From Sphingobacteriia bacterium (lineage in GTDB: Bacteria > Bacteroidota > Bacteroidia > Chitinophagales > Chitinophagaceae): a DNA stretch of 19,970 bases. The stretch covers positions 1-19,970 of the forward strand of contig REAV01000195.1 in the NCBI GenBank assembly GCA_004294465.1. The letters are read 5' to 3'. Every line of letters begins with the position of its first letter. Within the stretch, counting starts at the first letter, position 1. Positions 3,005 to 17,634 of the stretch are shown here, in pieces. Made by a program: the position numbers and the translations under genes. The notes under the pieces were generated by a model. The model did not search any database. It worked only from the letters and a program-made list of their open reading frames with translations, and was not told the DNA's origin.

Positions 3005-3028
3005 GAAGAATTATTTTATTATTGAGAA

Positions 3029-3427
3029 TTATTTTTTTAACAGAAAAATATATTTTACCATTTGTTCTGCATCGGCTTCTGATATCTGTGGATGTGGTGT
3101 CATTGGTACTTCGCCCCAATTGCCTTTTCCACCCTTGATAATTTTTCCTGCAAGCATTTTGATGTTGTCTTCAGTGTTTTCATATTTTGCTGCAACATCG
3201 GCATAAGCTGGCCCGATTAATTTATCTTTTACTTTATGACATGTTAAGCAATCTGATTTGCCAATCAATTCCAAACCTTTTTGATAATCAGGATTAGATC
3301 CTAAATCATCTTTTGTTGGAGCAGCTGAACCCAATTCAGGTTGGTTAGCTACTGTTTCTTTTTTTTCTCCGCCACCACAAGCTGCAATAGCTGCTGCAAA
3401 TACAATTAGTGTAAAAAACTTTTTCAA
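3029..3427 (-). CDS. Lipoprotein class I cytochrome c
   Basis: A 132-residue periplasmic mono-haem cytochrome. A lipoprotein signal (MKKFFTLIVFAAAIAAC) puts the lipidated Cys at residue 17, followed by a flexible linker. The haem site is CLTCH at 60-64 and a likely axial Met is in VPMTPHP (Met109). The C-terminal ISEADAEQMVKYIF helix is typical of class I cytochromes. The start codon is TTG at 3427. An in-frame stop at 3436-3434 excludes any upstream ATG, and an internal start would remove the lipobox. It would carry electrons from a periplasmic dehydrogenase to the respiratory chain. In LacABC/glucoside 3-dehydrogenase systems a cytochrome c is the third subunit, so it may partner the GMC enzyme at 6893-8572 although that gene is on the other strand. 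Confidence 0.9.
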   Translation of the reverse strand: MKKFFTLIVFAAAIAACGGGEKKETVANQPELGSAAPTKDDLGSNPDYQKGLELIGKSDCLTCHKVKDKLIGPAYADVAAKYENTEDNIKMLAGKIIKGGKGNWGEVPMTPHPQISEADAEQMVKYIFLLKK

Positions 3428-3463
3428 TTTGATTTATTTTATGGTTCTAAAAATACGCTTTTC

Positions 3464-3537
3464 TAATTAACTCTTATCTCATAATTCTTCATTCCAATAT
3501 TGTATCTCTTATCTTTTATCTCTTAACTCATATCTAT
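3464..3537 (-). repeat. Stop-anchored purine-rich tract A
   Basis: On the minus strand the stop codon of the isomerase gene (3540-3538) is followed directly by ATAGATATGAGTTAAGAG and further GATAAGAG units, ending in GAGATAC at 3508-3502. After AATATTGG a second short block (3490-3464, GAAGAATTATGAGATAAGAG) repeats the same words. It belongs to the same family as the tracts at 6791, 9191 and 16441. It fills most of the gap before the cytochrome gene. Confidence 0.85.
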
Positions 3538-4590
3538 TTAAATGCCTAAAATCCTTTTATTTAATTCATCATTAGCTCCAGTAGCAGCAAAATCATCAAA
3601 TGCTTTTTCCGTTACTCGTATGATGTGCTGCTTTATAAATGGCGCTCCTTCAGTAGCACCTGTTTCTGGATGTTTGATAGCACATTCCCATTCCATCACA
3701 GCCCATCCTGTATAATCGTATTGAGCCAACTTACTAAAGATGGTTTTAAAATCTACTTGTCCATCTCCTAATGAACGGAACCTGCCAGCTCTATTGATCC
3801 AGCTTTGATAGCCACCATAAACTCCTTGTTTACCCGTTGGATTAAATTCAGCATCTTTTACATGAAACATTTTAATACGTTCATGGTAATGATCTATATA
3901 AGTTTTGTAATCAAGACATTGTAATACAAAATGAGAAGGATCATACAATAAACAAGCGCGGGAATGATTATTTACTTTTTCTAAAAATAATTCATAAGAA
4001 ACGCCATCATGTAAATCTTCACCTGGATGTATTTCATAACAAAGGTCAATTCCATGAGTATCAAATTCATTTAAAATCGGCAACCATCTTTTGGCCAATT
4101 CTGTAAATCCAGTTTCTACTAATCCTGCCGGACGTTGTGGCCAAGGATAGACAGTTTGCCATAATAAAGCACCACTAAAAGTAGCATGTGCATTGAGGCC
4201 CAGGTTAGCTGATGCTTTTGCTGCATATTTTAATTGCTGCACTGCCCATGTGGTTCTTGCTGTTGTATTTCCTCTAATGGCTTCTGGCGCAAATCCATCA
4301 AATAATGCATCGTATGCAGGATTTACTGCTACCAGTTGACCTTGCAAATGAGTACTCAATTCGGTGATTTGCATTCCAGTTGATTCCACAATTCCCCTTA
4401 TTTCATCTGCATAGGTTTTGCTTTCTGCAGCTTTCTGTAAATCGATGCATCGAGGATCCCATGAAGGAATTTGAACTCCAACAAAACCCAATGATGCCGC
4501 CCATTTACAAATAGATTCCAAGCTATTAAATGGGGCAGTATCACCCATAAACTGTGCTAAAAAAATACCAGGGCCTTTTATTGTTCTCAT
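3538..4590 (-). CDS. Cytosolic sugar phosphate isomerase/epimerase (TIM barrel)
   Basis: A 350-residue protein of the xylose isomerase-like/AP endonuclease 2 TIM-barrel superfamily. No signal peptide is visible, so it should act in the cytosol. Expected metal-binding residues can be seen in order: Glu186 (CYEIHPGE), Asp217 and His220 (YDPSHF), His243 (FHVKD) and Glu300/302 (VMEWE). Family members isomerise or epimerise free or keto sugars using a divalent metal. Its ATG overlaps the stop of the Gfo/Idh/MocA gene by four bases (ATGA at 4590-4587), which implies translational coupling. Such pairs are common where a 3-keto-sugar or inositol-like compound is processed in two steps. The exact substrate cannot be read from sequence. 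The transcript continues into purine-rich tract A. Confidence 0.85.
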   Translation of the reverse strand: MRTIKGPGIFLAQFMGDTAPFNSLESICKWAASLGFVGVQIPSWDPRCIDLQKAAESKTYADEIRGIVESTGMQITELSTHLQGQLVAVNPAYDALFDGFAPEAIRGNTTARTTWAVQQLKYAAKASANLGLNAHATFSGALLWQTVYPWPQRPAGLVETGFTELAKRWLPILNEFDTHGIDLCYEIHPGEDLHDGVSYELFLEKVNNHSRACLLYDPSHFVLQCLDYKTYIDHYHERIKMFHVKDAEFNPTGKQGVYGGYQSWINRAGRFRSLGDGQVDFKTIFSKLAQYDYTGWAVMEWECAIKHPETGATEGAPFIKQHIIRVTEKAFDDFAATGANDELNKRILGI

Positions 4591-5762
4591 TGGTTATTGA
4601 TTTTATAAGTGGTCCATTTTTCATTCGATTGTGCCGATGCAACTACATTATCAATAAATGCCATACCGCGAATACCGTCTTCCACCGAAGGAAAATCTAG
4701 CGCCTCTTTACTTGGAACCGTTCCATCCAATTTAGCCATTAAGGTAGCTGCAAAATTTTTATAAATATTGGCAAAAGCTTCTAAATATCCTTCGGGATGC
4801 CCGCCTGGTGTTCTGCAGTTGGATGTTGCATAACTAGATAGTCGATCAGTATAATTAGATCCTGCTCTCAATATCTGAGTAGGTGCGTCTAGCCATTTCA
4901 CTATTAAAGTATTCGGTTCCATCTGTGCCCATTCCAATCCACCTTTTTCTCCATAAACCCTTATTTTTAAAGCGTTTTCCTCGCCTGCCGCCACTTGAGA
5001 TGCCATTAAAACACCAGTAGCACCATTATCAAAATGCAATAAAACAGCACCATCATCATCTAAGGCCCTGCCTGTAACAACTGTATTTAAATCGGCACAT
5101 AGTTTAGAAATTTTTGCTCCGCTGATATATTCCGCTAAATGGGCAGCATGTGTTCCTATATCCCCCATACTTCCACTCTTTCCAGATTTTTTTGGATCAG
5201 TTCTCCAGGCGGCTTGTGCATTTCCTTCGCGCTCACTTAACTTACTCAGCCATCCTTGCGGATATTCTACCCATATCTTTCTAACTTTCCCCAATACTCC
5301 ATCAGCCACCATAGCTTTGGCTTGTTTTACCATAGGATAGCCCGAATAAGTATGTGTTAAACAAAGTACTAATCCAGTAGCATCCACTTTGGCTTTTAAT
5401 TGTAAAGCTTCATCTAAATTAAACGCGATGGGTTTTTCTATCACTACATGAAAACCGTTGTCTAGTGCCATCATTGCAGGAGCAAAATGCGCAAAATTCG
5501 GAGTCACAATGGTAACAAAGTCCATTCTTTTATCTGATGGTAAAGCAGCTTCCTTGGTGATCATCTCTTCGAAAGTCAGGTATATTCTATCTTTTGGAAG
5601 AAATAAAATTTCACCAGATTCTTGCGCAACAGCAGGGTTAATGCTTAAAGCCCCACATACTAATTCAATTTGGCCGTCCATATTTGCAGCCAACCGATGA
5701 ATGGCACCAATGAAAGCGTCTTTGCCTCCACCTACCATTCCCATTCTTAATTTTCTTGCCAT
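4587..5762 (-). CDS. Cytosolic Gfo/Idh/MocA family oxidoreductase
   Basis: A 391-residue NAD(P)-dependent dehydrogenase without an export signal. The N-terminal Rossmann fold has a GMVGGGKDAF nucleotide-binding loop (residues 8-17) and the family hallmark EKP at 109-111, whose Lys is usually catalytic. The substrate domain carries GDIGTHAAHL (200-209), where the Asp and His are the usual catalytic pair. Members oxidise or reduce sugar hydroxyls, often at C3. It is the first gene of the minus-strand run, starting 128 bp from the divergent isomerase gene at 5891, with an inverted repeat between them that might serve as a shared operator. It overlaps the downstream isomerase by four bases. A role in reducing or oxidising 3-keto-sugar intermediates is inferred from context. 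Confidence 0.88.
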   Translation of the reverse strand: MARKLRMGMVGGGKDAFIGAIHRLAANMDGQIELVCGALSINPAVAQESGEILFLPKDRIYLTFEEMITKEAALPSDKRMDFVTIVTPNFAHFAPAMMALDNGFHVVIEKPIAFNLDEALQLKAKVDATGLVLCLTHTYSGYPMVKQAKAMVADGVLGKVRKIWVEYPQGWLSKLSEREGNAQAAWRTDPKKSGKSGSMGDIGTHAAHLAEYISGAKISKLCADLNTVVTGRALDDDGAVLLHFDNGATGVLMASQVAAGEENALKIRVYGEKGGLEWAQMEPNTLIVKWLDAPTQILRAGSNYTDRLSSYATSNCRTPGGHPEGYLEAFANIYKNFAATLMAKLDGTVPSKEALDFPSVEDGIRGMAFIDNVVASAQSNEKWTTYKINNQ

Positions 5763-5800
5763 AACATCAATTTTAATTGGATATTCTTTGTCAATAAAAG

Positions 5801-5835
5801 TAAATAATTAGAAGGGGAGTAAAGCTAATTATTTA
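5801..5835. promoter_or_regulatory. Inverted repeat in the divergent promoter region
   Basis: TAAATAATTAG (5801-5811) and CTAATTATTTA (5825-5835) are perfect reverse complements separated by 13 nt. They lie between the divergent genes at 5762 and 5891, 39 nt from the first start codon and 55 nt from the second. The position fits a regulator binding site controlling both directions; a hairpin in a leader RNA is the alternative. No dedicated regulator gene is in the window. Confidence 0.5.
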
Positions 5836-5863
5836 AAAGAAGTTTTTTTTCGATAACAATAAT

Positions 5864-5871
5864 TATATTTA
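5864..5871 (+). promoter_or_regulatory. Possible Bacteroidota -7 element
   Basis: TATATTTA resembles the Bacteroidota -7 consensus TAnnTTTG at seven of eight positions and lies 19 nt before the ATG at 5891. A T-rich stretch (5843-5850) sits roughly where a -33 element would be, though it is not a convincing TTTG. The assignment is weak because AT-rich DNA gives such matches by chance. Confidence 0.25.
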
Positions 5872-5890
5872 GTCTCTTATTTGCCATTTG

Positions 5891-6790
5891 ATGAAGAACG
5901 AAAATAGACGATCTGCTATTAAAAATATTCTTGCAGGAACTGCCGCAATGGCTATCACTCCGATATCGCAAACCTTTGCGAAAGCCAACGATTTTTCAAC
6001 AGTATTGGAAAACACAAACATGAACTTAAAAGGCAATATTAATCACGCAGTTTGCAGGTGGTGCTTTAATGATTTAACCCTTGAACAACTTTGTATTGAG
6101 GCAAAAAAAATGGGCATCACTGGTATAGATTTAATTGGCCCAAAAGAGTGGCCAATACTCAAACAGCAAGGCTTGTTTTCGAGTATGTGTAATGGCGCAG
6201 AAATCAGCCTGGTAAAGGGCTGGAATGACCCACAATATCATACTACCTTAATAAAAAATTACACAGAACATATTGAGTTGGTTGCGGCAGCAGGCTATAA
6301 AAACCTGATTTGTTTTTCGGGAAACAAAAACGGAATGGATAATGAAACAGGGTTAAAAAATGCTGCTGATGGGTTAAAAAAGATAATGTCGCTGGCAGAA
6401 AAGAAAGGCGTAATTATTCAAATGGAACTTTTTAATAGTAAGGTTGATCATAAAGATTATATGTGCGATAGTACTGCTTGGGGTGTAGAGCTTTGTAAAA
6501 AAATTGGCTCTCCAAATTTTAAATTATTGTATGATATCTATCATATGCAGATTAATGAAGGAGACGTTATAAGAACCCTTACCAGCAATCATGAATTTAT
6601 TGGTCATTATCATACTGCCGGTGTGCCAGGTAGGCATGAAATTGATGAGAGTCAAGAATTATTTTATCCTGCCATAATGAAAGCGATTGTAGCTACAGGA
6701 TACAAAGGATATGTTGCCCAGGAGTTTATTCCGGTTGCAAAAGATAAATTGGCTTCTTTGAAAAAAGCGATCGACATATGTGATATATGA
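5891..6790 (+). CDS. Exported hydroxypyruvate isomerase-like TIM-barrel protein
   Basis: A 299-residue xylose isomerase-like TIM-barrel protein. The N-terminus has a twin Arg (ENRRSAIKNILAG) followed by a hydrophobic stretch and SQTFAKA, which reads as a Tat or Sec-like export signal of about 31 residues. Metal-site residues are visible as Glu179 (QMELFN), Asp215 and His218 (YDIYHMQ), His241 (GHYHTAG) and Glu278 (AQEFIP). That arrangement resembles hydroxypyruvate isomerase (Hyi). The ATG at 5891 is preferred over the adjacent TTG at 5888. It begins the plus-strand half of the locus and is followed by a purine-rich tract and the GMC gene. An exported isomerase beside a periplasmic sugar dehydrogenase suggests work on a keto-sugar in the periplasm. 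The name reflects similarity, not a demonstrated reaction. Confidence 0.82.
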   Translation: MKNENRRSAIKNILAGTAAMAITPISQTFAKANDFSTVLENTNMNLKGNINHAVCRWCFNDLTLEQLCIEAKKMGITGIDLIGPKEWPILKQQGLFSSMCNGAEISLVKGWNDPQYHTTLIKNYTEHIELVAAAGYKNLICFSGNKNGMDNETGLKNAADGLKKIMSLAEKKGVIIQMELFNSKVDHKDYMCDSTAWGVELCKKIGSPNFKLLYDIYHMQINEGDVIRTLTSNHEFIGHYHTAGVPGRHEIDESQELFYPAIMKAIVATGYKGYVAQEFIPVAKDKLASLKKAIDICDI

Positions 6791-6851
6791 GTTAAGAATT
6801 AAGAGAGAAGAATTAAGAGATAAGAGATATAAGATAAAAGATAAGAGATAC
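6791..6851 (+). repeat. Stop-anchored purine-rich tract B
   Basis: The tract starts at the base after the TGA of the isomerase gene with GTTAAGAATTAAGAG and runs through GATAAGAGATATAAGATAAAAG to end in GAGATAC at 6845-6851. It then gives way to ordinary intergenic sequence before the GMC start at 6893. It has the same words and orientation (sense strand of the upstream gene) as tracts A, C and D. Confidence 0.85.
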
Positions 6852-6892
6852 AAAGGTTGAGTGAATTGTTTAATCGTTTATAAATAAATACT

Positions 6893-8572
6893 ATGGCGGA
6901 ACAAAATTTTGATGCAATCGTAATTGGCTCTGGAATCAGCGGCGGATGGGCTGCTAAAGAGTTAACCGAAAAAGGGTTGAAAGTGTTGATGCTCGAAAGA
7001 GGAAGAAACATTGAGCATGTAAAAGATTATGTAAATGCCAACAAAGAAGCTTGGGATTATCCGCACCATGATCGTAAAACACAGGAAATGATTGCCAATA
7101 ATCCTGTACGCAATCGCGATTATCCTTTGAATGAATCTACATTTGATATGTGGGCTAATGAAAAAGAAAGTCCTTATACAGAAGTAAAAAGATACGATTG
7201 GTTCAGGGGATACCATGTTGGTGGACGTTCCTTATTATGGGGTAGACAATCCTATCGTTGGAGCGATTTAGATTTTGAAGCAAATGCAAAAGATGGTGTT
7301 GCTATAGACTGGCCTGTGCGTTATAAAGACATAGCACCTTGGTATGATTATGTAGAAAAATTTGCAGGCATCAGTGGTAACAGAGATGGTATTCCTGTTT
7401 TACCAGACGGGCAATTCATGCCTCCAATGGATATGAACTGTGTAGAAAAAGATGTTGCTAAAAGAATTAAAGATTTTTATAAAGGACAACGTGCCATGAT
7501 TATTGGCCGTACTGCCAATATTACTCAACCTTTGGAAGGACGTACCAATTGCCAGTTCAGAAATAAATGTTGGCTAGGATGTCCATTTGGCGCCTATTTC
7601 AGCACTCAGTCTTCTACTTTACCTGCAGCTATGAAAACGGGCAATCTTACTTTACGCCCTTGGAGTATTGTCACCAAAATATTATACGATAAAGACAAAA
7701 AGAAAGCAACTGGTGTTGAAGTATTGGATGCAGAAACCAACAAAACCTATGTATACAATGCGAAAATAATTTTCTTGAACGCCTCTACGTTGAATTCTGC
7801 TTGGGTATTGATGAACTCAGCAACCGATGTATGGGAAGGAGGATTGGGCAGCAGTAGCGGTGAGTTAGGACATAATATTATGGACCATCATTTAGGAGCA
7901 GGTGCAAATGGCAAAATTGATGGCTATGAAGACAAATATTATTTTGGGAGAAGAGCCAATGGCATTTATATACCTCGTTATCAAAATGTAAATGGAGATA
8001 CACGAGAATATAAAAGAGGATTTGGCTATCAAGGTTCTGCAAGCAGAGAAGGTTGGGGAAGACAAATTGCTGAAATGAGCATTGGCGGAGATTTTAAAGA
8101 TGCATTAACTGAACCAGGCGGTTGGAGAATGGGTATTATGGGTTTTGGTGAAGTATTACCTGATCATGCCAATTTTGTTACACTCGATAAAACTGTAAAA
8201 GATAAATGGGGTTTGAATGTGTTGAAGATTGATGCAGAACTAAAAGAGAATGAATTAAAGATGCGCAAAGATATGCAGGCTGATGCCATTGAAATGCTTA
8301 CCAATGCTGGCGCTAAAGATGTAAAGGGATATGATGCGAATGGTGTGCTTGGCAGAGGCATTCACGAAATGGGAACAGCTAGAATGGGTGCTGATCCTAA
8401 AACATCTGTAGTGAATAAGCACAATCAAATTTGGGATGCTCCGAATGTATTTGTAACAGATGGATCTTTCATGACTTCAGCTGCTTGTGTAAATCCTTCT
8501 TTAACTTATATGGCATTTACTGCGAGAGCAGCAGATTATGCAGTGAGTGAATTAAAGAAAGGGAATTTATAA
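6893..8572 (+). CDS. GMC-family flavoprotein sugar dehydrogenase, large subunit
   Basis: A 559-residue FAD-dependent oxidoreductase of the glucose-methanol-choline family. The FAD-binding loop GSGISGG (12-18) and Glu35 (MLERG) are at the N-terminus. The C-terminal GMC domain has His491 (HEMGTARMG) and Asn534 (CVNPSLTYMAF) in the positions of the catalytic pair. Cys220, Cys226 and Cys230 (C-x5-C-x3-C) match the spacing I recall for the 3Fe-4S ligands of bacterial FAD glucose dehydrogenase catalytic subunits. There is no own signal peptide. The small subunit encoded 51 bp downstream has one, and in this class export occurs piggy-back through Tat. The likely reaction is oxidation of a sugar hydroxyl, at C3 in glucoside 3-dehydrogenases or C2 in gluconate dehydrogenases. 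C3 is favoured by the keto-sugar context. Confidence 0.9.
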   Translation: MAEQNFDAIVIGSGISGGWAAKELTEKGLKVLMLERGRNIEHVKDYVNANKEAWDYPHHDRKTQEMIANNPVRNRDYPLNESTFDMWANEKESPYTEVKRYDWFRGYHVGGRSLLWGRQSYRWSDLDFEANAKDGVAIDWPVRYKDIAPWYDYVEKFAGISGNRDGIPVLPDGQFMPPMDMNCVEKDVAKRIKDFYKGQRAMIIGRTANITQPLEGRTNCQFRNKCWLGCPFGAYFSTQSSTLPAAMKTGNLTLRPWSIVTKILYDKDKKKATGVEVLDAETNKTYVYNAKIIFLNASTLNSAWVLMNSATDVWEGGLGSSSGELGHNIMDHHLGAGANGKIDGYEDKYYFGRRANGIYIPRYQNVNGDTREYKRGFGYQGSASREGWGRQIAEMSIGGDFKDALTEPGGWRMGIMGFGEVLPDHANFVTLDKTVKDKWGLNVLKIDAELKENELKMRKDMQADAIEMLTNAGAKDVKGYDANGVLGRGIHEMGTARMGADPKTSVVNKHNQIWDAPNVFVTDGSFMTSAACVNPSLTYMAFTARAADYAVSELKKGNL

Positions 8573-8623
8573 TTTAATTGCTGGGATTTTATTAATTAAT
8601 TAAGACATTTTAAAAATACAATT

Positions 8624-9190
8624 ATGAATAGAAGAGAAGCATTATCCAGTGTAGCCGTTTTATTGGGCGGCACTTTGATTGGTGCAGAAGCTTTTTTATC
8701 GGGATGTAAAAACGCATCGAGTGATGTGGTAGCATTTACTCCAGATGATATTGCTTTTTTAAACGAAGTAGCTGAAACAATTTTACCTAAAACTGATACT
8801 CCGGGAGCCAAGGAAGCTAAAGTGGGTGATTTTATGGCGGTGATAGTAAAAGATTGTTATAAGCCAGCAGAAGCAAAAGCATTTATGGAAGGAATGGCTG
8901 CCTTGAAATTCAAAGATGCTAAAGCTAAAATTGGAAAATCATTTATGGAAGCCTCCCCAGAAGAGCGCCATAAATTATTGGTGGAATTAGATGCAGAACA
9001 AAAAGCGTTTCAAGAAAAAAAGAAAACAGATGATTTGCCTCATTATTTCCGTATGATGAAAGAACTTACATTATGGGGCTTCTTTACCTCTGAAGTAGGT
9101 GCTACCAAGGCTTTGCGTTATGTTGCTGTGCCAGGAAAATATGAAGGTTGTATTGATTATAAGAAAGGAGATAAAGCTTGGGCGACATAG
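8624..9190 (+). CDS. Gluconate 2-dehydrogenase subunit 3-type small subunit
   Basis: A 188-residue partner of the GMC flavoprotein. It begins with a Tat-like signal (MNRREALSSVAVLLGGTLIG) leading to FLSGC, so Cys28 is probably lipidated. The mature part starts FTPDDIAFLNEVAETILPKTDTPGA, which is the characteristic opening of the gluconate 2-dehydrogenase subunit 3 family, and contains YFRMMKELTLWGFFTSEVG near the end. In the family this subunit carries the export signal for the folded large subunit and is needed for its maturation. The LacC or glucoside 3-dehydrogenase small subunit is the closest functional analogue. It lies 51 bp after the large-subunit gene and is followed at once by the longest purine-rich tract. 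Confidence 0.88.
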   Translation: MNRREALSSVAVLLGGTLIGAEAFLSGCKNASSDVVAFTPDDIAFLNEVAETILPKTDTPGAKEAKVGDFMAVIVKDCYKPAEAKAFMEGMAALKFKDAKAKIGKSFMEASPEERHKLLVELDAEQKAFQEKKKTDDLPHYFRMMKELTLWGFFTSEVGATKALRYVAVPGKYEGCIDYKKGDKAWAT

Positions 9191-9324
9191 AGAATTATGA
9201 GATAAGAATTATGAGATAAGAGATATGAGATAAGAGATATAAGATAAGAGATATAAGATAAGAGATATAAGATAAGAGATATGAGATAAGAGATATGAGA
9301 TAAGAGATATAAGATAAGAGATAC
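9191..9324 (+). repeat. Tract C: nine 14-nt tandem units after a stop codon
   Basis: After AGAATTAT (9191-9198), positions 9199-9324 consist of nine consecutive 14-nt units of the form RAGATAAGAGATAY. The only clear deviation is the first unit (GAGATAAGAATTAT), and the last unit ends in GAGATAC. Since 14 is not a multiple of three, stops occur in every frame, and unit junctions create minimal ATG-AGA-TAA frames. It starts at the base after the TAG of the small-subunit gene and ends inside what should be the start of the next gene. Confidence 0.95.
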
Positions 9325-9361
9325 AGAGAAAACAGTTGGTTTAGCAACTGCAGGATTAACA

Positions 9362-10171
9362 TTGCCTTTTACTGGTAAGAGTAATTTAATAGAAGAATTT
9401 GCAGCATATAAAAAATTGTCTGCTTTTGGAATACAGTTGTGGACAGTGAAATCAGAAATGGGCGCCGATGCAAAAGGAACTTTGGCCAAATTAGCTAAAG
9501 ATGGATATAAGCAAATCGAAAGTTTTGAAGGCCCGAAGGGAATGTTTTGGGGAATGAAAAATACAGAGTTTAAAATGTATATGGACGATTTGGGTATGAA
9601 TTTAATTTCATCTCATTGCAACAATACTGTAGACTTTGAACGAAAAGCAACTGAAGCTGCTGAAATAGGAGTTAAGTATTTAATATGCGCCTATAAAGGG
9701 CCACAAAAATCAATCGACAATTTCAAGGCATTTAATGATGAGTTTAATAAGTGTGGTGAAATCTGCAAAAAAAACGGAATAAGATTTGCCTACCATAATC
9801 ATGACTATTCTTTTAAAATGATTGATGGACAAATGCCTCAAAAAGTAATGATGGAAGGAACTGATGCTTCATTGGTAGATTTTGAAATGGATATTTATTG
9901 GGTGGTTGCTGCAAAAGAAAACCCTGAAGAATGGTTTAAAAAATATCCCAACCGATTTAAATTATGTCATGTAAAAGACCAGACTAAAACAGCCACTGGA
10001 ATTGAGTCTTGTCATTTAGGTAAAGGTGCGATAGATTTCAAATCGATACTTAAAACAGGAAAGGCAGAGGGATTACAGCATTTTATTGTAGAACAAGAAG
10101 CATTTACTGGAAGCAATCCAATGGATTCAGCTGCTGCCAATGCCTTATACATGAAAGCAATTAGCATATAA
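9362..10171 (+). CDS. TIM-barrel sugar isomerase with its 5' end lost
   Basis: A TIM-barrel isomerase/epimerase read here from a TTG at 9362 (269 residues). The body looks intact: FGIQLWTVKSE opens the barrel, followed by His145-Asn146-His147 (YHNHDYSF), Asp177 (MDIYWV), His203 (CHVKD) and Glu244/246 (VEQEAF), consistent with a metal site. Upstream in frame the DNA encodes EKTVGLATAGLTLPF, which looks like the hydrophobic part of a Tat signal. The expected Met and twin Arg are missing, because repeat tract C supplies that sequence and places a stop at 9296-9298. The first in-frame ATG (9458) would delete the first barrel strand. It may be a recent pseudogene, or be translated from a non-ATG codon and so remain in the cytosol. 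Its 3' end converges with the lipoprotein gene, 10 nt apart. Confidence 0.7.
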   Translation: MPFTGKSNLIEEFAAYKKLSAFGIQLWTVKSEMGADAKGTLAKLAKDGYKQIESFEGPKGMFWGMKNTEFKMYMDDLGMNLISSHCNNTVDFERKATEAAEIGVKYLICAYKGPQKSIDNFKAFNDEFNKCGEICKKNGIRFAYHNHDYSFKMIDGQMPQKVMMEGTDASLVDFEMDIYWVVAAKENPEEWFKKYPNRFKLCHVKDQTKTATGIESCHLGKGAIDFKSILKTGKAEGLQHFIVEQEAFTGSNPMDSAAANALYMKAISI

Positions 10172-10181
10172 ATACATCCTG

Positions 10182-10868
10182 TTAATTACTGCTATTTATC
10201 AAGGGAACAATATTGTAAGTGGCTTCTACAGACCTTTCTGATTTATTCCATATGTATTTGCCATCCACTTTTTTGCCAAGAGGTAAGCCCCAACTCTCTT
10301 GGAAATCGGTATTCATTAAAATAATTTGAATTGGAATATTTTTTTGGCGAATGATTTTTGCTGTTTCCAACACTTCCTCGCGCATGTCTTTATATAATGC
10401 ATATTTCATCCATGGAATAATCACAACATAGTTACCAATTAAATTTTCTGCAAAAATATTTTTTCTATCTAAGGTTCTTAAAGGCGCTAACGCTTTGTTT
10501 AGATTTCTGTTTGTATCAATTAATTTTTCAAAATGAATGGATAAGGAATCAGGATTAGCTGCTGTATGAGCAAAGAATGGGGCCCAATTATTTTCATTTT
10601 TTGGAACTAATGCATTGCCGTTGGGGTCGAAAAATTTGTTTGACCATGCAGTATTAAAGTTGAGTAAACTAGCTGAATCTAATGGAGTTTGATGAATATA
10701 AGTATGTAATGCGGGCAATGAATCTTTTTGATTCAAAAAAGCTTGAACCGTAGATGCATTTTCAACGCGTGGTGATTTTCCTCCAGCTAACTTATATATT
10801 CCTTGTGCACATGACAAAAACAGAAGTAGATGAGCAGCAACAACAATATATAGAGTAATTTGACGCAT
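10182..10868 (-). CDS. Lipoprotein of unknown function
   Basis: A 228-residue protein I do not recognise. The N-terminus (MRQITLYIVVAAHLLLFLSC) is a lipoprotein signal with Cys20 as the probable lipidation site, so the protein should be anchored in the periplasm or at the outer membrane. The C-terminal half has an alternating strand/helix pattern with NYVVIIPWMKYALYKDMREEVLE and IPIQIILMN, which could be a thioredoxin-like or Rossmann-like core, but no CxxC is present. The only Cys is the lipobox one. It lies on the minus strand within the sugar locus, downstream of the Tat-exported Gfo/Idh/MocA gene with a 92-bp gap. A link to the keto-sugar pathway rests on location alone. Confidence 0.7.
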   Translation of the reverse strand: MRQITLYIVVAAHLLLFLSCAQGIYKLAGGKSPRVENASTVQAFLNQKDSLPALHTYIHQTPLDSASLLNFNTAWSNKFFDPNGNALVPKNENNWAPFFAHTAANPDSLSIHFEKLIDTNRNLNKALAPLRTLDRKNIFAENLIGNYVVIIPWMKYALYKDMREEVLETAKIIRQKNIPIQIILMNTDFQESWGLPLGKKVDGKYIWNKSERSVEATYNIVPLINSSN

Positions 10869-10943
10869 CTTTTTTTATTGATAACATCAAATAATAAGCC
10901 ATCAAAGGCAACGAACTGTTAAAGGAATTGCCAGATTATCACT

Positions 10944-10966
10944 TTTTAGAATAATCTATTCTAAAA
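10944..10966 (-). terminator. Perfect 10-bp hairpin over the stop codon
   Basis: TTTTAGAATA (10944-10953) and TATTCTAAAA (10957-10966) pair perfectly around a 3-nt loop. The right arm contains the TAG stop of the Gfo/Idh/MocA gene (10963-10961). Stem length and loop size resemble the hairpin at 1021-1047. No T run follows in the minus sense, so termination is uncertain; 3'-end protection of the mRNA is an alternative. Confidence 0.45.
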
Positions 10967-12391
10967 TGAACGATAGGTTCTTTTGATAAACTGATTGGCT
11001 TCATCAAAATTGGTGATCTTCATATTTGGTCCATCCCACAAAAGTTTAATATTTCTACCAGGATAAGTTGTGTTTCCACTGCTGCTTTTCTTTTGCAAAT
11101 CGTTGCTGCGTATAGCTAAATTGCCCATCAAGACACTTTCGGTTAGAGGGCCTGCGATATCAAAATGAGAACTTAGATTTTTTGCTTTATCAGAACCATA
11201 TCCTGCAATAGCGGCTTCTACCCAAGCTGCATAGTGCCCATTATCTCCATTGGGAACCCTTGCAATTGTCTGAGGAACGATGGTTTGTTTGCTCCTACTG
11301 GTTGGCAATAAATTAGGCAATGCTCCATATGTACCACAAATCATCTTTCCTTTAGTTCCTAAAAAGATTGTTCCGTTTCCACCATCACCCATTAATTCGT
11401 TGGGTTCTAATTCCTCAGGACGATCTGGGCGAATACCACCATCCATCCAATGTAATTTTACATCGGGCTTACCATTTTGTCCTTTGAAAGTTAAAATAAT
11501 ATGAGATGCAGTTGGGCAGCTTTCCGGATAGTATGCCCTTGTCCACGGTTGTAGATACCTGGTTGCAACACTACATTCGGCCGAAACAGGATAACCCAAT
11601 CCTAAAACAGCAAATGCAGGTGCTATGATATGACAAGCCATGTCGCCTAAAGCACCAGTACCATAATCCCACCAGCCACGCCAGTTAAAAGGAAGTAATC
11701 CCTCTACAAAGTCTTTGTAAGGTGCTGTTCCCAACCATAAATTCCAATCTAATTCTGCAGGTATGGGGCCAGTAGCAATAGGCCATCCAATTCCTTGAGG
11801 CCAAACTGGTCGATCAGTATAACAATAAATAGTATGCACATCTCCAATAATACCTGCATTATACCAATCAATTAATTGGCGAACGCCATCACCTGATGCA
11901 CCTTGATTACCCATCTGTGTTACTACTTTGTATTTATGGGCGGCTTCGGTCATGGTTCTTGCTTCATAAATATCATGAGAAAGCGGCTTTTGAACATAGA
12001 CATGCTTTTTTAATTGCATAGCTGCCAATGCTTGTGGGGCATGCATATGGTCAGGAGTTGATACAGAAACTGCATCTATATTTTTATGCTCTTTATCGAG
12101 CATTTCGCGATAGTCTTTGTACTTTTTTGCATTTGGATATCTACTTCTGCTTTTTGCTGTTTGACGTTCATCTACATCACATAAAAATGCAATATCTGCT
12201 TTGCCGCTTTGGTGAAAATTCCAGAGATCACTTTCTCCCTTACCGCCAGCTCCAATACCAGCTACTTGTAATTTATCACTTGGTGCAATAAATCCTCTGC
12301 CTAATACATGGCGAGGAACAATGTAAAAACCTGCAGCAGCAATACCTGCATTACGGAGGAAGGAACGACGAGATGGATTTTCTTTTTTCAT
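10961..12391 (-). CDS. Tat-exported Gfo/Idh/MocA protein (GH109-like candidate)
   Basis: A 476-residue Gfo/Idh/MocA protein with a Tat signal: SRRSFLRNAG at 7-16, a hydrophobic stretch, then VPRHVLGRG. The Rossmann loop follows (VAGIGAGGKGESD, 43-55), with QKP at 134-136 in place of the usual EKP and GALGDMACHI carrying the Asp/His pair. The ATG at 12391 is chosen because it gives a compact Tat n-region; a TTG at 12400 is the only extension. Secreted members with tightly bound NAD include GH109-type glycosidases, which cleave glycosides through a 3-keto intermediate. That would fit the locus well, but free NAD(H) is absent from the periplasm and the specificity cannot be read here. It is divergent from the membrane-protein gene at 12516. 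Confidence 0.86.
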   Translation of the reverse strand: MKKENPSRRSFLRNAGIAAAGFYIVPRHVLGRGFIAPSDKLQVAGIGAGGKGESDLWNFHQSGKADIAFLCDVDERQTAKSRSRYPNAKKYKDYREMLDKEHKNIDAVSVSTPDHMHAPQALAAMQLKKHVYVQKPLSHDIYEARTMTEAAHKYKVVTQMGNQGASGDGVRQLIDWYNAGIIGDVHTIYCYTDRPVWPQGIGWPIATGPIPAELDWNLWLGTAPYKDFVEGLLPFNWRGWWDYGTGALGDMACHIIAPAFAVLGLGYPVSAECSVATRYLQPWTRAYYPESCPTASHIILTFKGQNGKPDVKLHWMDGGIRPDRPEELEPNELMGDGGNGTIFLGTKGKMICGTYGALPNLLPTSRSKQTIVPQTIARVPNGDNGHYAAWVEAAIAGYGSDKAKNLSSHFDIAGPLTESVLMGNLAIRSNDLQKKSSSGNTTYPGRNIKLLWDGPNMKITNFDEANQFIKRTYRSF

Positions 12392-12515
12392 GAATGGCAA
12401 TTATGAACAATGAATATACAGAAAATAATAAAAAAGGAGATAATCAAATCCTATGTAATTTTAAAAAGCTGATTATTTTTGGTTGTAAGTCAACAATAAA
12501 TAAAACCTAGATAAA

Positions 12516-12899
12516 ATGAGATCATTACTCACCGTCACAGCATTGTTGGAAGGATGTACTGGTTTGGCACTTGCTTTTGTTCCTACTTTGGTTGCATCAA
12601 AATTACTTGGCACTAGTTTCACCGATCCGGGTGTAATGATCATTGCGAAACTTGCCGGTGCTGCATTAATAACTATTGCAATTGCCTGTTGGCTTTCGAG
12701 AAGTAATTCTCAGTCTACTATTATGGTTAAAGCTATGCTTGCATATAATTTCTTTTCTATAGTTTTACTATCATACTCAGCATTAGGGGAAAGCATTTCA
12801 GGACCTGGTTTGTGGCCGGCTGTGTTCATTCATCTTGTATTGTTGATTTGGTGTTTATTTTCATTGAAGTCTAAGCAGCAATCTCAAATTAACACTTAA
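12516..12899 (+). CDS. Small four-helix membrane protein, unknown function
   Basis: A 127-residue protein dominated by four hydrophobic segments: roughly residues 5-30 (TALLEGCTGLALAFVPTLVA), 40-62 (VMIIAKLAGAALITIAIACWL), 72-90 (KAMLAYNFFSIVLLSYSAL) and 98-117 (GLWPAVFIHLVLLIWCLFSL). The tail is short and polar. It resembles uncharacterised small integral membrane proteins of Bacteroidota; I cannot name a family. The ATG at 12516 is the natural start and is the first gene of the plus-strand run. A 78-bp gap separates it from the dihydroorotase-family gene, so co-transcription is possible. Confidence 0.7.
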   Translation: MRSLLTVTALLEGCTGLALAFVPTLVASKLLGTSFTDPGVMIIAKLAGAALITIAIACWLSRSNSQSTIMVKAMLAYNFFSIVLLSYSALGESISGPGLWPAVFIHLVLLIWCLFSLKSKQQSQINT

Positions 12900-12977
12900 G
12901 TCAAACAAAATTAATTCGGCCATTATTGAAACCAATTATTGCATTTCTTTCATACTTTTTTAATCATACGATTTTCA

Positions 12978-14324
12978 ATGTCTCAAAGAATCATCATTCA
13001 AAATATCAGCATCGTTAATGAAGGAAAAATCATCATTAACGATCTTCTGATCGACAAAGGAATCATTCAAAAAATTGGATCAATCAATCATATCGACAAT
13101 GCTACAATCATTGATGGAACGGGAAAATTTCTTTTCCCTGGTATAATCGATGGACAAGTTCATTTTAGAGAGCCGGGGCTTACGCATAAAGGCGACCTCT
13201 ATTCTGAATCTAAAGCGGCCGTTGCAGGTGGAGTAACTTCTTTTATCGATATGCCCAATACCATCCCCAATGTTTTGACCATGGAACTATTTGAGGAGAA
13301 GTACAAAATAGCTGCAAAAAAATCCCTGGCAAATTTTGGTTTTTTTCTGGGCGTAAATGGCGATAATATAGATGAAATAATACAACTAGATACTTCCAAA
13401 CTCTTAGCTGTATCTGATGATGGACTTTATTTTACTAAGAAAGGCAATTTGTTGGCAGATAACCCTGAAACAATGGAAAAATTGTTTGCCAATTGTAAAT
13501 CGATCATTGCCATTCATTCCGAAAAAGAACAAATAGTAGAGGAGAATGAAAATATATACAGAGAAAAATATGGCGAAAATGTACCTGTGGAATTTCATCC
13601 ATTAATCAGAAGTGAGAAAGCATGTTATGAAGCAACTAAAAGAGCGATTGAACTGGCTAACAAGCACCATGCTAAACTCCATATTCTTCATTTAACAACT
13701 GAAGCAGAAACGCATTTATTTAGAAACGATATTCCATTAAAAGAAAAAAATATTACTACAGAAGTATCGGTTCATCATTTATGGTTTTCCGATAAAGATT
13801 ATCCTGAATTAGGAACACTCATTAAATGGAATCCAGCAATTAAAACAGAAAAAGATAAAAAGGGACTTTTAAAAGCATTATTGGATAATAGAATAGATAT
13901 TGTAACAACCGATCATGCTCCGCACTCTTTAGACGAAAAACAAAAACCCTATTTTCAGTCTATGTCTGGAGCACCGATGGTGCAACACTCTTTGAATATT
14001 ATGCTGGAATTTTACAAGCAAGGACTTATTTCTTTGGAAGTCATTGCAGAAAAAATGTGCCATAACCCAGCCATACTGTATAGAATTACTAATAGGGGAT
14101 TTGTAAGAGAAGGGTATGCTGCGGATTTAACCATTCTTGATCTTCATTCCGAATGGACTGTCTGCAAAGAAAATATCTTATATAAATGCGGTTGGTCTCC
14201 TATAGAAGGAACCCATTTTCAAACTAAAGTGACGCATACATTTGTTAATGGAAATTTGGTATATGAGAATGGAAGTTTCAACGAAGAAATAAAAGGGGAA
14301 GCATTATTAAAGATCATTGAATAA
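12978..14324 (+). CDS. pyrC: Dihydroorotase-family amidohydrolase
   Basis: A 448-residue type I dihydroorotase-like enzyme, which would close carbamoyl aspartate to dihydroorotate in pyrimidine synthesis. Family motifs are clear: FPGIIDGQVHFREPG at 53-67, MPNT at 92-95, SDDG at 146-149, IHSEKE at 179-184, LHILHL at 234-239 and TDHAPH at 311-316. The first His of the metal-binding HxH is replaced (Gln60-Val-His62). The carboxylated Lys found in other dihydroorotases is absent. SDDG, where Asp serves as metal ligand in the Aquifex-type enzyme, stands in its place. The remaining ligands (His180, His235 or 238, Asp312) are present. The ATG at 12978 starts the family match; an upstream TTG at 12939 adds an unlikely 13 residues. 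Function as PyrC is likely but a related hydrolase is possible. Confidence 0.82.
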   Translation: MSQRIIIQNISIVNEGKIIINDLLIDKGIIQKIGSINHIDNATIIDGTGKFLFPGIIDGQVHFREPGLTHKGDLYSESKAAVAGGVTSFIDMPNTIPNVLTMELFEEKYKIAAKKSLANFGFFLGVNGDNIDEIIQLDTSKLLAVSDDGLYFTKKGNLLADNPETMEKLFANCKSIIAIHSEKEQIVEENENIYREKYGENVPVEFHPLIRSEKACYEATKRAIELANKHHAKLHILHLTTEAETHLFRNDIPLKEKNITTEVSVHHLWFSDKDYPELGTLIKWNPAIKTEKDKKGLLKALLDNRIDIVTTDHAPHSLDEKQKPYFQSMSGAPMVQHSLNIMLEFYKQGLISLEVIAEKMCHNPAILYRITNRGFVREGYAADLTILDLHSEWTVCKENILYKCGWSPIEGTHFQTKVTHTFVNGNLVYENGSFNEEIKGEALLKIIE

Positions 14325-14387
14325 AACTAAAATGAACTGAGGAGGTATTTTTTATTTCCTTAACTTGAGTAAATAAAAATTTCCCTG

Positions 14388-15764
14388 ATGAGTTCCTTAC
14401 TAGATCAACTCCATGCAATGCGCCGTTATTTTGAAACTGGCGTAACTAAACCATATGCATACAGGAAACAACAATTACTTGCTTTAAAAAAGGTGGTAGA
14501 AGAAAATGAACAAGCCATTTATGACGTTTTACATGCCGATTTAAAAAAAAGCAAAGAGGAGAGTTGGGTTACTGAGAATGGTTTTTTCATGGCAGAATTG
14601 AAAGACACCCTTTCTAACTTAAAAAATTGGATGGAGCCTCAAGCCGTACCAACCAATTTATTAAATCTTCCATCGAGCAGTAAAATTGTTCAAGAACCAT
14701 TGGGTGTTGTTTTGGTGATTGGGCCATGGAATTATCCATTTCAATTATTATTCACTCCATTAATGGGGGCTATAGCAGCTGGTAATTGTGTGGTTTTAAA
14801 ACCCAGTGAGTTTGCACCTGCTACTGCTGCAATCATGCAAAAAATTGTAGAAGCTTGTTTTACACCAGAACAGGTTTTATATATTCCAGGAGATGGTGCA
14901 ACAGTTATTCCTGAGATGATGAATCATTTTTCTTTTGATCATGTTTTTTATACTGGCAGTACTTCTGTAGGAAAAATCATTTATAAAATGGCCGCAGAAA
15001 AGTTAACGCCTGTAACATTAGAACTCGGTGGCAAAAGCCCTTGTGTAGTGGAAGCCGATGCCAATATTTCGGTTGCTGCGAAACGGATAGCTATGCCTAA
15101 ATATTCCAATGCTGGTCAGATGTGCGTTGCTCCTGATTACGTATTGGTGCATGAAAGCAAAAAAAACGAGTTGATTGAAGCCTTAAAAAAAGCGATACCC
15201 AATATGTATGGAGTAGACGCTTCAAAAACGGATGGATATGGAAAGATCATTAATGAAAAACAGTTCAATAGAATCATCACTTACTTGACGGATGGCACAA
15301 TCGTGTATGGTGGAAAATACAATGCAGCTGATTTATATATTGAACCTACTATAATTGATGGAGTAAATATTGATTCGAAAATAATGAAGGAAGAAATTTT
15401 TGGACCAATTCTTCCAATACTTACTTTCAACACTATGGAAGAAGCAAAAGCAATTATTGCGCACAATCCTAATCCATTAGCATTTTATATTTTCACTTCT
15501 TCTAATGAAAAAGAAAAAGCTTGGATTGACGCAGTTCCTGCTGGTGGGGTTTGTGTAAATGCAGCAAGTGTTCATTTGATGAATCCGCATCTTCCCTTTG
15601 GTGGTAGAGGTTTCAGTGGCACAGGCGCATATCATGGTAAATACAGTTTCGATACATTCAGCCATAAAAAGTCAGTGATGAAATCGTTTACCTGGTTTGA
15701 TCCAGCATTAAAATATCCGCCATTCAATGGTAAATTGAAATTATTAAAATGGATGCTAGGATGA
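14388..15764 (+). CDS. Aldehyde dehydrogenase, class 3-like
   Basis: A 458-residue NAD(P)-dependent aldehyde dehydrogenase, in the size range of the ALDH3/fatty-aldehyde group and shorter than typical ALDH1/2 enzymes of about 500. The cofactor region has VIGPWNYPFQL and GNCVVLKPSE. The general base is Glu212 (TLELGGKSP) and the catalytic Cys is Cys246 (NAGQMCVAPDYVL), a segment typical of class 3 enzymes. PFGGRGFSGTGAYHGKYSFDTFSH near the C-terminus is also class-typical. It would oxidise medium- or long-chain or aromatic aldehydes to acids, for example from lipid peroxidation. Its stop overlaps the glutathione peroxidase start by four bases (ATGA), which supports a joint role against oxidative lipid damage. 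Confidence 0.92.
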   Translation: MSSLLDQLHAMRRYFETGVTKPYAYRKQQLLALKKVVEENEQAIYDVLHADLKKSKEESWVTENGFFMAELKDTLSNLKNWMEPQAVPTNLLNLPSSSKIVQEPLGVVLVIGPWNYPFQLLFTPLMGAIAAGNCVVLKPSEFAPATAAIMQKIVEACFTPEQVLYIPGDGATVIPEMMNHFSFDHVFYTGSTSVGKIIYKMAAEKLTPVTLELGGKSPCVVEADANISVAAKRIAMPKYSNAGQMCVAPDYVLVHESKKNELIEALKKAIPNMYGVDASKTDGYGKIINEKQFNRIITYLTDGTIVYGGKYNAADLYIEPTIIDGVNIDSKIMKEEIFGPILPILTFNTMEEAKAIIAHNPNPLAFYIFTSSNEKEKAWIDAVPAGGVCVNAASVHLMNPHLPFGGRGFSGTGAYHGKYSFDTFSHKKSVMKSFTWFDPALKYPPFNGKLKLLKWMLG

Positions 15765-16420
15765 AAAAATTCATCCTGATATTACTCACTTTATTCATCA
15801 TTGCAATTGTATTTGTAAAACAAAAAAACATGACCTGGAGACAATCTATCTTAAAAGCAATTTATCCATTGATCATGTTGAAAGGAAAAATTGCAGGAAA
15901 TGATAAAGCCATTAAACTAAATAGTGAAGCGGTTTTACCTACAACTTCTTTTTACGATTTATCGGCAATTAAAAACAATGGCGATACGCTTCCATTCGCC
16001 ACATTGAAAGGCAAAAAGGTATTGATTGTAAACACTGCCAGTGATTGTGGCTATACAGGTCAATATGAACAATTAGAGCAATTGCACAAAAAATATGGCA
16101 ATCAATTGGTAGTGCTGGGTTTTCCTGCCAACGATTTTAAAGAGCAAGAGAAAAAATCAGATACCGATATTGCGGAGTTTTGTAAAGTGAATTATGGTGT
16201 AAGTTTTCAATTGATGAAAAAATCTAGCGTGATAAAATCTCCAAATCAAAACATCGTATTTAAATGGTTGTCTGATCCTGCTGAAAATGGCTGGAGTAAA
16301 TACCAACCTACCTGGAATTTTAGTAAATATCTGATTGATGAGAAAGGAGTGCTACAGGGATTTTTTACGCAAGATATTTCGCCGTTAGACGGAGCAGTTA
16401 TTAAGTTATTGGGTTATTAG
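15761..16420 (+). CDS. Membrane-anchored glutathione peroxidase-like protein
   Basis: A 219-residue thioredoxin-fold peroxidase with an N-terminal hydrophobic segment (MKKFILILLTLFIIAIVFV) that works as an anchor or uncleaved signal, so the enzyme should face the periplasm. The peroxidatic Cys96 is in NTASDCGYTGQY. Gln129 (KEQE) and Trp185 (TWNFSKYL) complete the usual catalytic set, and Cys141 (EFCKVNYG) is a candidate resolving Cys of the thioredoxin-dependent type. The usual GFPCNQF motif reads GFPANDF, with Cys and Gln replaced. About 60 residues separate the anchor from the catalytic domain. The ATG at 15761 overlaps the aldehyde dehydrogenase stop (ATGA), giving a translationally coupled pair. 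Likely substrates are hydrogen peroxide and lipid hydroperoxides. Confidence 0.88.
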   Translation: MKKFILILLTLFIIAIVFVKQKNMTWRQSILKAIYPLIMLKGKIAGNDKAIKLNSEAVLPTTSFYDLSAIKNNGDTLPFATLKGKKVLIVNTASDCGYTGQYEQLEQLHKKYGNQLVVLGFPANDFKEQEKKSDTDIAEFCKVNYGVSFQLMKKSSVIKSPNQNIVFKWLSDPAENGWSKYQPTWNFSKYLIDEKGVLQGFFTQDISPLDGAVIKLLGY

Positions 16421-16421
16421 G

Positions 16422-16435
16422 TTATGCATTTCTCC
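16422..16435 (-). repeat. Solo core of the 157-nt repeat
   Basis: On the minus strand this reads GAGAAATGCATAAC-like sequence, matching the core GAGAAATGCATA of the foldback repeats at 182-193 and 1711-1722. It sits directly after the stop of the peroxidase gene and beside tract D. It is short, so coincidence is possible. Confidence 0.3.
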
Positions 16436-16440
16436 TTAAG

Positions 16441-16516
16441 GTATCTCATAACTCATATCTTTTATCTTATATCTCTTCTTTCTTAATTCTTCTTTCTTAA
16501 TTCTTAATTCTTAATT
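16441..16516 (-). repeat. Stop-anchored purine-rich tract D
   Basis: On the minus strand the TAG of dusB (16519-16517) runs straight into AATTAAGAATTAAGAATTAAG, then AAGAAGAGATATAAGATAAAAG, and ends in GAGATAC at 16447-16441. It fills the convergent gap between the peroxidase gene and dusB. It shares words, orientation relative to the upstream gene and terminal heptamer with tracts A-C. Confidence 0.85.
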
Positions 16517-17554
16517 CTATATGGGGCAATTCTCATGGTAATTGATCAACTCTATAGGAGTTCTCTCAAAACCATATCCAGCATAAGCTACAGCCACTTC
16601 ATCTAAGACAGCTTCTATCTCCAATGGGTCCATCAAGGTAACTAAGCGTGCGCGATAATCTTTTATTCCTGGTAAACCTTTTAAGTAATTTGTATAATGA
16701 CGGCGCATTTCGAATATACCCACTTTAGGTCCCTTCCATTCTACAGATTTTTGCAAATGTTTTTTACATACTGCCACTCGTTCTATTAAAGTTGGGGATG
16801 GCATTATTTCTCCAGTAGCTATATAATGTTTGATCTCTCTGAAAATCCATGGGTAACCAATAGCGGCTCTTCCAATCATTATTCCATCTACCCCATAACG
16901 ATTTTTATATTCCACTGCTTTTTGTGGGCTGTCAATATCTCCATTCCCAAAAATCGGAATATGCATGCGTGGATTATTTTTCACTTTTGCAATTAGGGTC
17001 CAATCGGCTTCACCTTTATACATTTGAGCCCTTGTTCTTCCATGTATTGCCAGCGCTTTGATTCCTACATCCTGTAATCGCTCAGCTACTTCTTCAATAT
17101 TTTTATTGGAATCATCCCAGCCCAAACGAGTTTTTACGGTTACAGGCAATGAAGTGCTTTTTACAACAGCCTCTGTTAATCGAACCATTAAATCAATATC
17201 TTTCAAAACACCCGCACCCGCACCTTTTAATGCCACTTTTTTTACTGGACACCCAAAATTGATGTCTAGTAAATCAGGGTTTACCGTTTCTACAATTTTT
17301 GCACTTAATGAGAGTGCTTCTTCATCTCCTCCAAAAATTTGTATACCAACCGGGCGCTCATAATCGAAAATATCGAGTTTTTGACGGCTCTTGATGGCAT
17401 CCCTTATCAACCCCTCACTACTGATAAACTCAGTATACATCAGGTCTGCTCCGTTGTCTTTACATACAGCACGAAATGGTGGATCGCTTACATCTTCCAT
17501 TGGAGCAAGCAACAAAGGAAAATCAGGAAGTATTATTTGATCAATTTTTACCAT
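16517..17554 (-). CDS. dusB: tRNA-dihydrouridine synthase
   Basis: A 345-residue FMN enzyme that reduces uridine to dihydrouridine in the tRNA D-loop using NADPH. The FMN-binding opening LLAPMEDVSD, the substrate segment MYTEFISSEGL, the proton-donor Cys102 in DINFGCPVKKV, VKTRLGW, AIHGRTRAQMYKGEADW and IFGNGDI/IMIGRAAIGYPW follow in the normal order. The ATG at 17554 is chosen because it places the conserved ILPDFPLLLAPM close to the N-terminus. The TTG at 17596 would add 14 residues that do not fit the family. DusB is the Bacteroidota-type Dus most often seen, though subgroup naming by eye is uncertain. It is divergent from the CPBP protease gene 80 bp away. Confidence 0.93.
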   Translation of the reverse strand: MVKIDQIILPDFPLLLAPMEDVSDPPFRAVCKDNGADLMYTEFISSEGLIRDAIKSRQKLDIFDYERPVGIQIFGGDEEALSLSAKIVETVNPDLLDINFGCPVKKVALKGAGAGVLKDIDLMVRLTEAVVKSTSLPVTVKTRLGWDDSNKNIEEVAERLQDVGIKALAIHGRTRAQMYKGEADWTLIAKVKNNPRMHIPIFGNGDIDSPQKAVEYKNRYGVDGIMIGRAAIGYPWIFREIKHYIATGEIMPSPTLIERVAVCKKHLQKSVEWKGPKVGIFEMRRHYTNYLKGLPGIKDYRARLVTLMDPLEIEAVLDEVAVAYAGYGFERTPIELINYHENCPI

Positions 17555-17634
17555 ATTGCAGTGTATACCTCTTATCCTTTTTTGGGTGTTTCCCAATAAG
17601 GAATTTGCGAAATTACAATCTTATTTTTAAAACA

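Follow-up and report, generated by a model that had tools for sequence, protein, structure and literature searches.

Four purine-rich tracts stand directly behind stop codons in the window studied here, a 19,970-nucleotide stretch of DNA from a Sphingobacteriia bacterium (contig C54 of a 1.78-Mb genome of 233 contigs that is 70.6% complete). Each tract is a tandem array of a 7-base unit with the consensus RARWTAW on its purine strand, which in every case is the sense strand of the gene that ends there. The tracts belong to a genome-wide heptanucleotide array family, and we hold, with moderate confidence, that this is a lineage-specific, spreading tandem-repeat family that selection has filtered to stop codons. 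It is unusual for a repeat to keep to a stop codon as well as to a strand, and here this rule is countable: it appears in two sister metagenome-assembled genomes (MAGs) and, in a looser form built on a different heptad, in a related clade.

Heptad arrays in the window and the genome

Tandem Repeats Finder reported periods of 7 and 14 in the window. Tract 1 (3467–3529, minus strand; 6 perfect units) follows the stop of a xylose-isomerase-like gene (3538–4590, minus), its first perfect heptad lying at +8 relative to that stop. Tract 2 (6789–6844, plus strand; 7 perfect units) opens with a unit that overlaps the TGA stop of gene 5891–6790 (-2), while tract 3 (9192–9317, plus strand; 18 perfect units, period 7/14) begins 1 nt past the TAG stop of gene 8624–9190 (+1). 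Tract 4 (16448–16517, minus strand; 8 perfect units; unit types GAATTAA/GAAAGAA/GAGATAT) lies behind the TAG that ends the Dus gene (16517–17554, minus), at a convergent junction, with its first perfect heptad at -1 nt. An earlier note on this DNA had correctly located the four tracts behind stops on the sense strand, together with the word GAGATAC at 3502–3508 (-), 6845–6851 (+), 9318–9324 (+) and 16441–16447 (-). It had taken this word as the end of every tract, which is so for tracts 2–4; in tract 1 the word is internal, and heptads resume beyond it to 3467. Two words that it described as common to all four are not, since tract 3 lacks TTAAGA and tract 4 lacks GATAAGAG; what the tracts share is the period-7 RARWTAW unit. 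A fifth copy of GAGATAC, at 7995–8001, lies within a gene.

The family extends well beyond chance: GATAAGAGATA occurs in 140 copies (69 + 71) in the genome, four consecutive RARWTAW units match 291 times, and the reversed controls of both patterns gave 0. The variant GAATTAAGAATTAA, with 8 copies against 8 for its reversed control, is not enriched and alone is no marker. For counting, an array was defined as at least 3 perfect RARWTAW units, and the DNA analysed comprised the window and 43 stretches around heptad words, 246,020 bases in total, an array-selected sample of ~14% of the genome. This sample holds 66 arrays with a mean of 8.3 perfect units, GAGATAA and AAGATAA being the commonest, and the array strand consists of 55% A, 22% G, 22% T and 0.4% C. 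RAGATAC stands directly 3' of 26 of the 66 arrays, so that the word is a recurring end outside the window and not a constant one; beyond it, only a following A (27/34) is conserved.

Stop codons, strand and gene ends

We call an array stop-side when the gene at its purine 5' end lies on the same strand and start-side when that gene lies on the opposite strand. Of the 66 arrays, 50 are stop-side, 15 lie at the start codon of an opposite-strand gene and 1 has no left gene. An excess at stops in sense orientation, which the earlier note had named as decisive and which we followed over the 246 kb and the sister loci below, is therefore present (50/65), though a minority of 15/65 departs from it. 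The array begins -23 to +9 nt from the stop in 47 of the 50 stop-side cases (the others at 22, 38 and 413); genes were called with a home-made codon-usage script that missed or shortened some of them (e.g. the open reading frame (ORF) 17476–18564), and distances at single loci are fallible. We compared the observed positions with 20,000 placements in which each array was slid inside its own gap, using 42 of the 50 stop-side arrays (8 were left out, 6 for want of a right neighbour and 2 because theirs lay very far away). Array starts within 10 nt of the stop numbered 41 of 42, against an expectation of 14.7 ± 2.3 and a maximum of 25, confirming the predicted enrichment over moved positions. The far end is not anchored in this way: in 7/42 the following gene is 10 nt or less from the right end.

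The side on which an array lies depends on its units. Arrays dominated by AGATAW are stop-side in 37 cases, start-side in 1 and without a left gene in 1, whereas those dominated by ATTAW/GTTAW are stop-side in 5 and start-side in 11 (Fisher p 5e-7 for the two types); mixed arrays divide 8 to 3. As read from the units, AGATAW carries stops on the purine strand alone and ATTAW/GTTAW on both strands, and GAATTA-type units contain the short palindrome AATT. Junctions with an array comprise 37 tandem, 10 convergent and 4 divergent ones, compared with 72, 6 and 34 among array-free junctions with gaps of at least 30 nt, giving a convergent share of 10/51 against 6/112. At several convergent junctions facing arrays are paired in the form GATAC-loop-GTATC.

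At tandem junctions the distance from the array end to the next start has a median of 44.5 nt (n=28), close to the 41 nt of array-free tandem gaps (n=129; p=0.43 with non-negative gaps compared). Arrays thus seem mostly to have been added at the stop, with the native gap kept downstream, and both this and the near absence of arrays from the same junctions in 12 congeners agree with the note's suggestion that the element is preferentially copied or inserted where genes end. Overwriting of the native flank in the 5' direction is not favoured as a general mode, because the remainder behind the array equals normal gaps; replacement did occur at tract 3 and seemingly at ctaB.

In 25 of the 50 stop-side arrays the distance is negative, the array overlapping the stop codon that the gene uses. 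The ctaB protein ends in ADKN, its last codon and stop lying within the first array unit, while relatives end in ADKI, ADKIG, ADKIR, ADKL and similar; one relative (L384) ends in ADKN with no array behind it. Similarly, the gene at L050 ends in VLSKN with an array, four close relatives have VLGK, and the closest relative (L392) ends differently. At tract 2 the TGA stop corresponds to TAA in 11 and TGA in 1 of 12 congeners, and at tract 3 the position of the TAG stop is common to relatives. Arrays rewrite the C-termini and stop codons of genes, in most cases without apparent loss, which makes the site choice of intergenic repeats testable by comparing sister genomes. A loss is seen behind tract 3, which occupies the place of the leader and of the start and first codons of a xylose-isomerase-like gene (9325–10171). 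A remnant of its 5' coding part (9325–9361, plus strand) precedes the first in-frame ATG, GTG or TTG, a TTG at 9362, and a Tat-like N-terminus has been lost. The sister MAG retains this part intact, with the start and an RRDFL signal-type N-terminus, and the compared relatives are intact as well.

The earlier note had also stressed that the tracts carry stops in all frames. This appears largely to be a by-product of isolated T among purines, as we reason from the letters, yet the 25 overlaps mean that array stops are used. Selection for three-frame stops as the cause of the consensus was considered and not accepted as proven, because with a single T among purines most orders of the letters contain a stop.

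The sister MAG (Sphingobacteriia bacterium isolate RE-15aug16-157; nucleotide identity ~83–87%) follows the same rule. In a deduplicated set of 46 arrays, from which contig-end arrays and those without a left gene were removed, 38 are stop-side and 8 start-side (33 and 4 for the AGATAW type), with stop distances of -23 to +16 in 36/38 and of 24 and 28 in the others. RAGATAC stands behind 23/46, a share inflated because the pattern used to retrieve 30 of the loci itself ends in RAGATAC. All four window junctions bear arrays in the sister, in a region located by similarity and not by its arrays; their unit numbers and units differ from ours, their stop codons partly differ, and one further junction of the region, array-free in our genome, has an extra array. 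At the place of tract 1 the sister has 10 perfect units and the same flank, AATATTGGAATGAAGAA, after GATAC. Terminal residues change with the first unit between the sisters (ANKN/ANKR, LVKR/LIKN). Among sister loci, 25 of 26 matched junctions of our genome also have an array, a count biased because most of these loci were fetched for their arrays. The exception is L051, where positions 3012–3669 hold an array and a ~500-bp ORF, both missing from the corresponding sister locus (L298).

Related arrays in congeners and other genomes

Among 36 listed congeners, 34 have 0–2 copies of GATAAGAGATA, and the other two have 7 (G026) and 34 (G034). The window junctions could be compared in 12 congeners (hyi-gmc, the site of tract 2, and small-iso), 10 (epi1-cytc) and 8 (gpx-dus, the site of tract 4). 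A RARWTAW array of at least 3 units occurs at any of these junctions in 1 of 12 congeners, at hyi-gmc of G030 (L184), where it is antisense and start-side; this gap contains GTCGGGAC-like short repeat units and TAATTC-type heptads. The hyi-gmc gap measures 35–60 nt in 9/12 congeners and 93, 126 and 127 nt in the rest.

At gpx-dus, other purine-rich heptads occur in G034, where they include AAGATAA-like units, and in G026, where RAGTGAR arrays lie behind both stops. RAGTGAR triplets number 224, 225 and 229 in G026, G034 and G455, and 1 in G459; since this heptad reads the same backwards, a reversed pattern is uninformative as a control, and we used instead the 57 of 61 genomes that have 0. Of 29 RAGTGAR arrays at 22 loci of G026 and G034, 23 are stop-side, 4 start-side and 2 neither. 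Among the stop-side ones, 13/23 lie within 13 nt of the stop and 10 at 21 to 122 nt, several of these 10 behind other purine-rich heptads.

More widely, the four-unit RARWTAW pattern occurs in at least 67 of 396 genomes, in several of which the reversed control is equally common or commoner. In nine locus sets from other Bacteroidia, counted among the matches listed, TTAT-type arrays are stop-side in 17 cases, start-side in 24 and neither in 2, TTAA-type arrays stop-side in 12, start-side in 6 and inside a gene in 1, and AGATA-type arrays stop-side in 0 and start-side in 2. A gene boundary is 15 nt or less from the 5' end of the array in 43/61 of these matches and from the 3' end in 5/61, and the polarity with which the 5' edge meets a gene boundary is therefore wider than the stop rule. 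In G353 (L128, L129, L131, L134), most of the gap between genes of the same direction is taken up by facing GAATTAT arrays, three to four units long; these arrays could form long hairpins, whose loops vary between copies.

When named genomes were scanned for five RAGATAW units, at least 114 stretches matched, and 80 loci were grouped by hand from their titles. Among the matches listed, Bacteroidales-like loci are stop-side in 18 cases, start-side in 2 and neither in 3, Sphingobacteria-like loci in 5, 2 and 1, and other loci, including Clostridia and Vibrio, in 18, 9 and 4. The stop-side bias of RAGATAW recurs but is not universal, Chryseobacterium being contrary. The arrays of this genus, (AAGATAA)n-AAGATCTTG, resemble ours in their RAGATAW unit, variable unit number and shared 3' flank, and differ in being mostly start-side and in the greater length of that flank. 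At L259, L266, L312, L324, L325, L326 and others they are dispersed, share a AAGATCTTGTCGTTAAA-like 3' flank and lie antisense, 14–138 nt upstream of different genes, looking like a separate variable-number element.

Possible origins of the arrays

In the spreading family that we favour, copies would spread from junction to junction by short-homology copying or conversion and would then lengthen or shorten by slippage and unequal exchange; that units are copied is suggested by the recurrence of RAGATAC as a 3' end. Selection would leave chiefly the arrays directly behind a stop and in sense orientation. In a compact genome, coding DNA and the ~40-nt leader of the next gene would be protected, leaving little else free. 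Where a purine-strand array overruns the end of a gene, it would immediately supply a new stop, whatever the frame, while an antisense AGATAW copy, stop-free and pyrimidine-rich, would do harm as a gene end or a leader. Two features would thus keep arrays at stops: what remains of the short gap is leader, and the purine-strand array restores the stop.

The closest known parallel is the short tandemly repeated repetitive (STRR) heptanucleotide sequences of heterocystous cyanobacteria, which are degenerate 7-bp units, intergenic and lineage-specific. Our arrays are similar in their degenerate 7-bp tandem units, many intergenic copies and lineage-specific unit, and differ in phylum and unit; they also have a strict address, which STRR sequences are not known to follow, with the 5' edge at the stop codon and a mostly sense orientation, and in addition a recurring word at the 3' end and units that provide the stop.

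Several observations weigh against the spreading family. Nothing that moves the arrays was observed and no enzyme identified, and the gene ends on which the stop rule is built come from our own script. The preference for stops may exceed what simple filtering would produce, and four window sites common to two genomes of ~83–87% identity would also fit selection for function. Among the matches listed, Chryseobacterium has 1 stop-side, 19 start-side and 2 other RAGATAW arrays, and the two AGATA-type arrays of G403 are both start-side, so the heptad by itself does not account for the stop rule.

Selection for function is the strongest competitor, although we judge it unlikely. Here the arrays would be 3' elements, nearly C-free, unstructured purine-rich RNA behind the stop, with proposed roles in ribosome termination or recycling, mRNA protection or the sealing of readthrough. 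Their stop adjacency and sense strand in both sisters, the 0.4% C of the array strand, the window sites shared with the sister while units differ, and the similar address of RAGTGAR in the congeneric clade are all as such an element would have them. So is the RNA folding of the four tracts, which was no better than that of mononucleotide shuffles (minimum free energies of -0.3, 0.0, -1.7 and 0.0 kcal/mol for tracts 1 to 4, against shuffle means of -2.0, -0.6, -2.7 and -1.2). Nonetheless, the function would be dispensable in congeners, because 34/36 carry 0–2 copies of the word; moreover, 15/65 arrays are antisense at start codons, tract 3 broke a neighbouring gene, and at gathering scores no Rfam 15 model matched the window. 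The earlier note's proposal of a termination or mRNA-stability role accordingly keeps the address in its favour and finds no backing in Rfam, in folding or in sense-strand terminator-like sites.

A mobile element served by a dedicated enzyme reading a gene-end motif, in the manner of REP/RAYT or IS200/IS605, with RAGATAC as one end, seems to us improbable. The recurring 3' word and the facing pairs at several convergent junctions would suit it, and G034, with related arrays, carries one Y1 transposase (PF01797, present in 3/12 genomes). The same family has 0 matches in our genome at its 70.6% completeness and in the RAGTGAR-bearing G026, nothing is conserved past RAGATAC and the following A, and unit number varies freely. 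REP sequences are short palindromes moved by a Y1 transposase. Like REP/BIME sequences with RAYT, the arrays lie behind stops and in convergent junctions and form inverted pairs; unlike them, the window tracts do not fold beyond shuffles. With PF01797 not found and units that, by folding of the four window tracts, are not imperfect palindromes, a REP/RAYT system is not supported in our genome.

It is very unlikely that the arrays are intrinsic terminators or half-terminators, facing arrays forming a bidirectional hairpin. Facing arrays could pair in RNA, and convergent junctions are enriched among those with arrays, but many arrays are single and facing arms differ in their units (L055, L058, L064). 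The sense strand of the four tracts has no terminator-like site and folds no better than shuffles, and apparent G+C hairpins with T-runs lie after arrays at some loci (L039, L040 and several in G034), so that at L039 and L040 the array sits between the stop and the apparent native terminator. An artefact of assembly or composition is scarcely credible: arrays often end contigs (C23 and C57 in our genome; C24, C37 and C59 in G026), but the reversed controls gave 0, a second MAG has arrays at the same junctions and flanking gene order is conserved.

Alongside the spreading family, we put forward as a speculative and rather unlikely extension that in some Bacteroidota a sequence-flexible process adds sense heptad arrays at stop codons without being tied to one unit. 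It would have used RAGATAW in this species and its sister and RAGTGAR in G026, G034 and G455, at least once at the same junction, and its anchor would be the point where translated DNA or RNA ends, the stop codon. If true, such a process would tie translation to where repeats grow.

The genes neighbouring the tracts match Pfam families of cytochrome c, xylose-isomerase-like proteins, GMC oxidoreductase, gluconate 2-dehydrogenase subunit 3, glutathione peroxidase and Dus, and from gene order tracts 2 and 3 apparently lie inside one operon. Another kind of repeat occurs near the start of the window, where positions 104–263 and 1678–1838 are inverted copies of a ~160-bp sequence, 81% identical and flanking two small ORFs; with GTTTCAAACA-like words near its ends, it looks like a miniature inverted-repeat transposable element.

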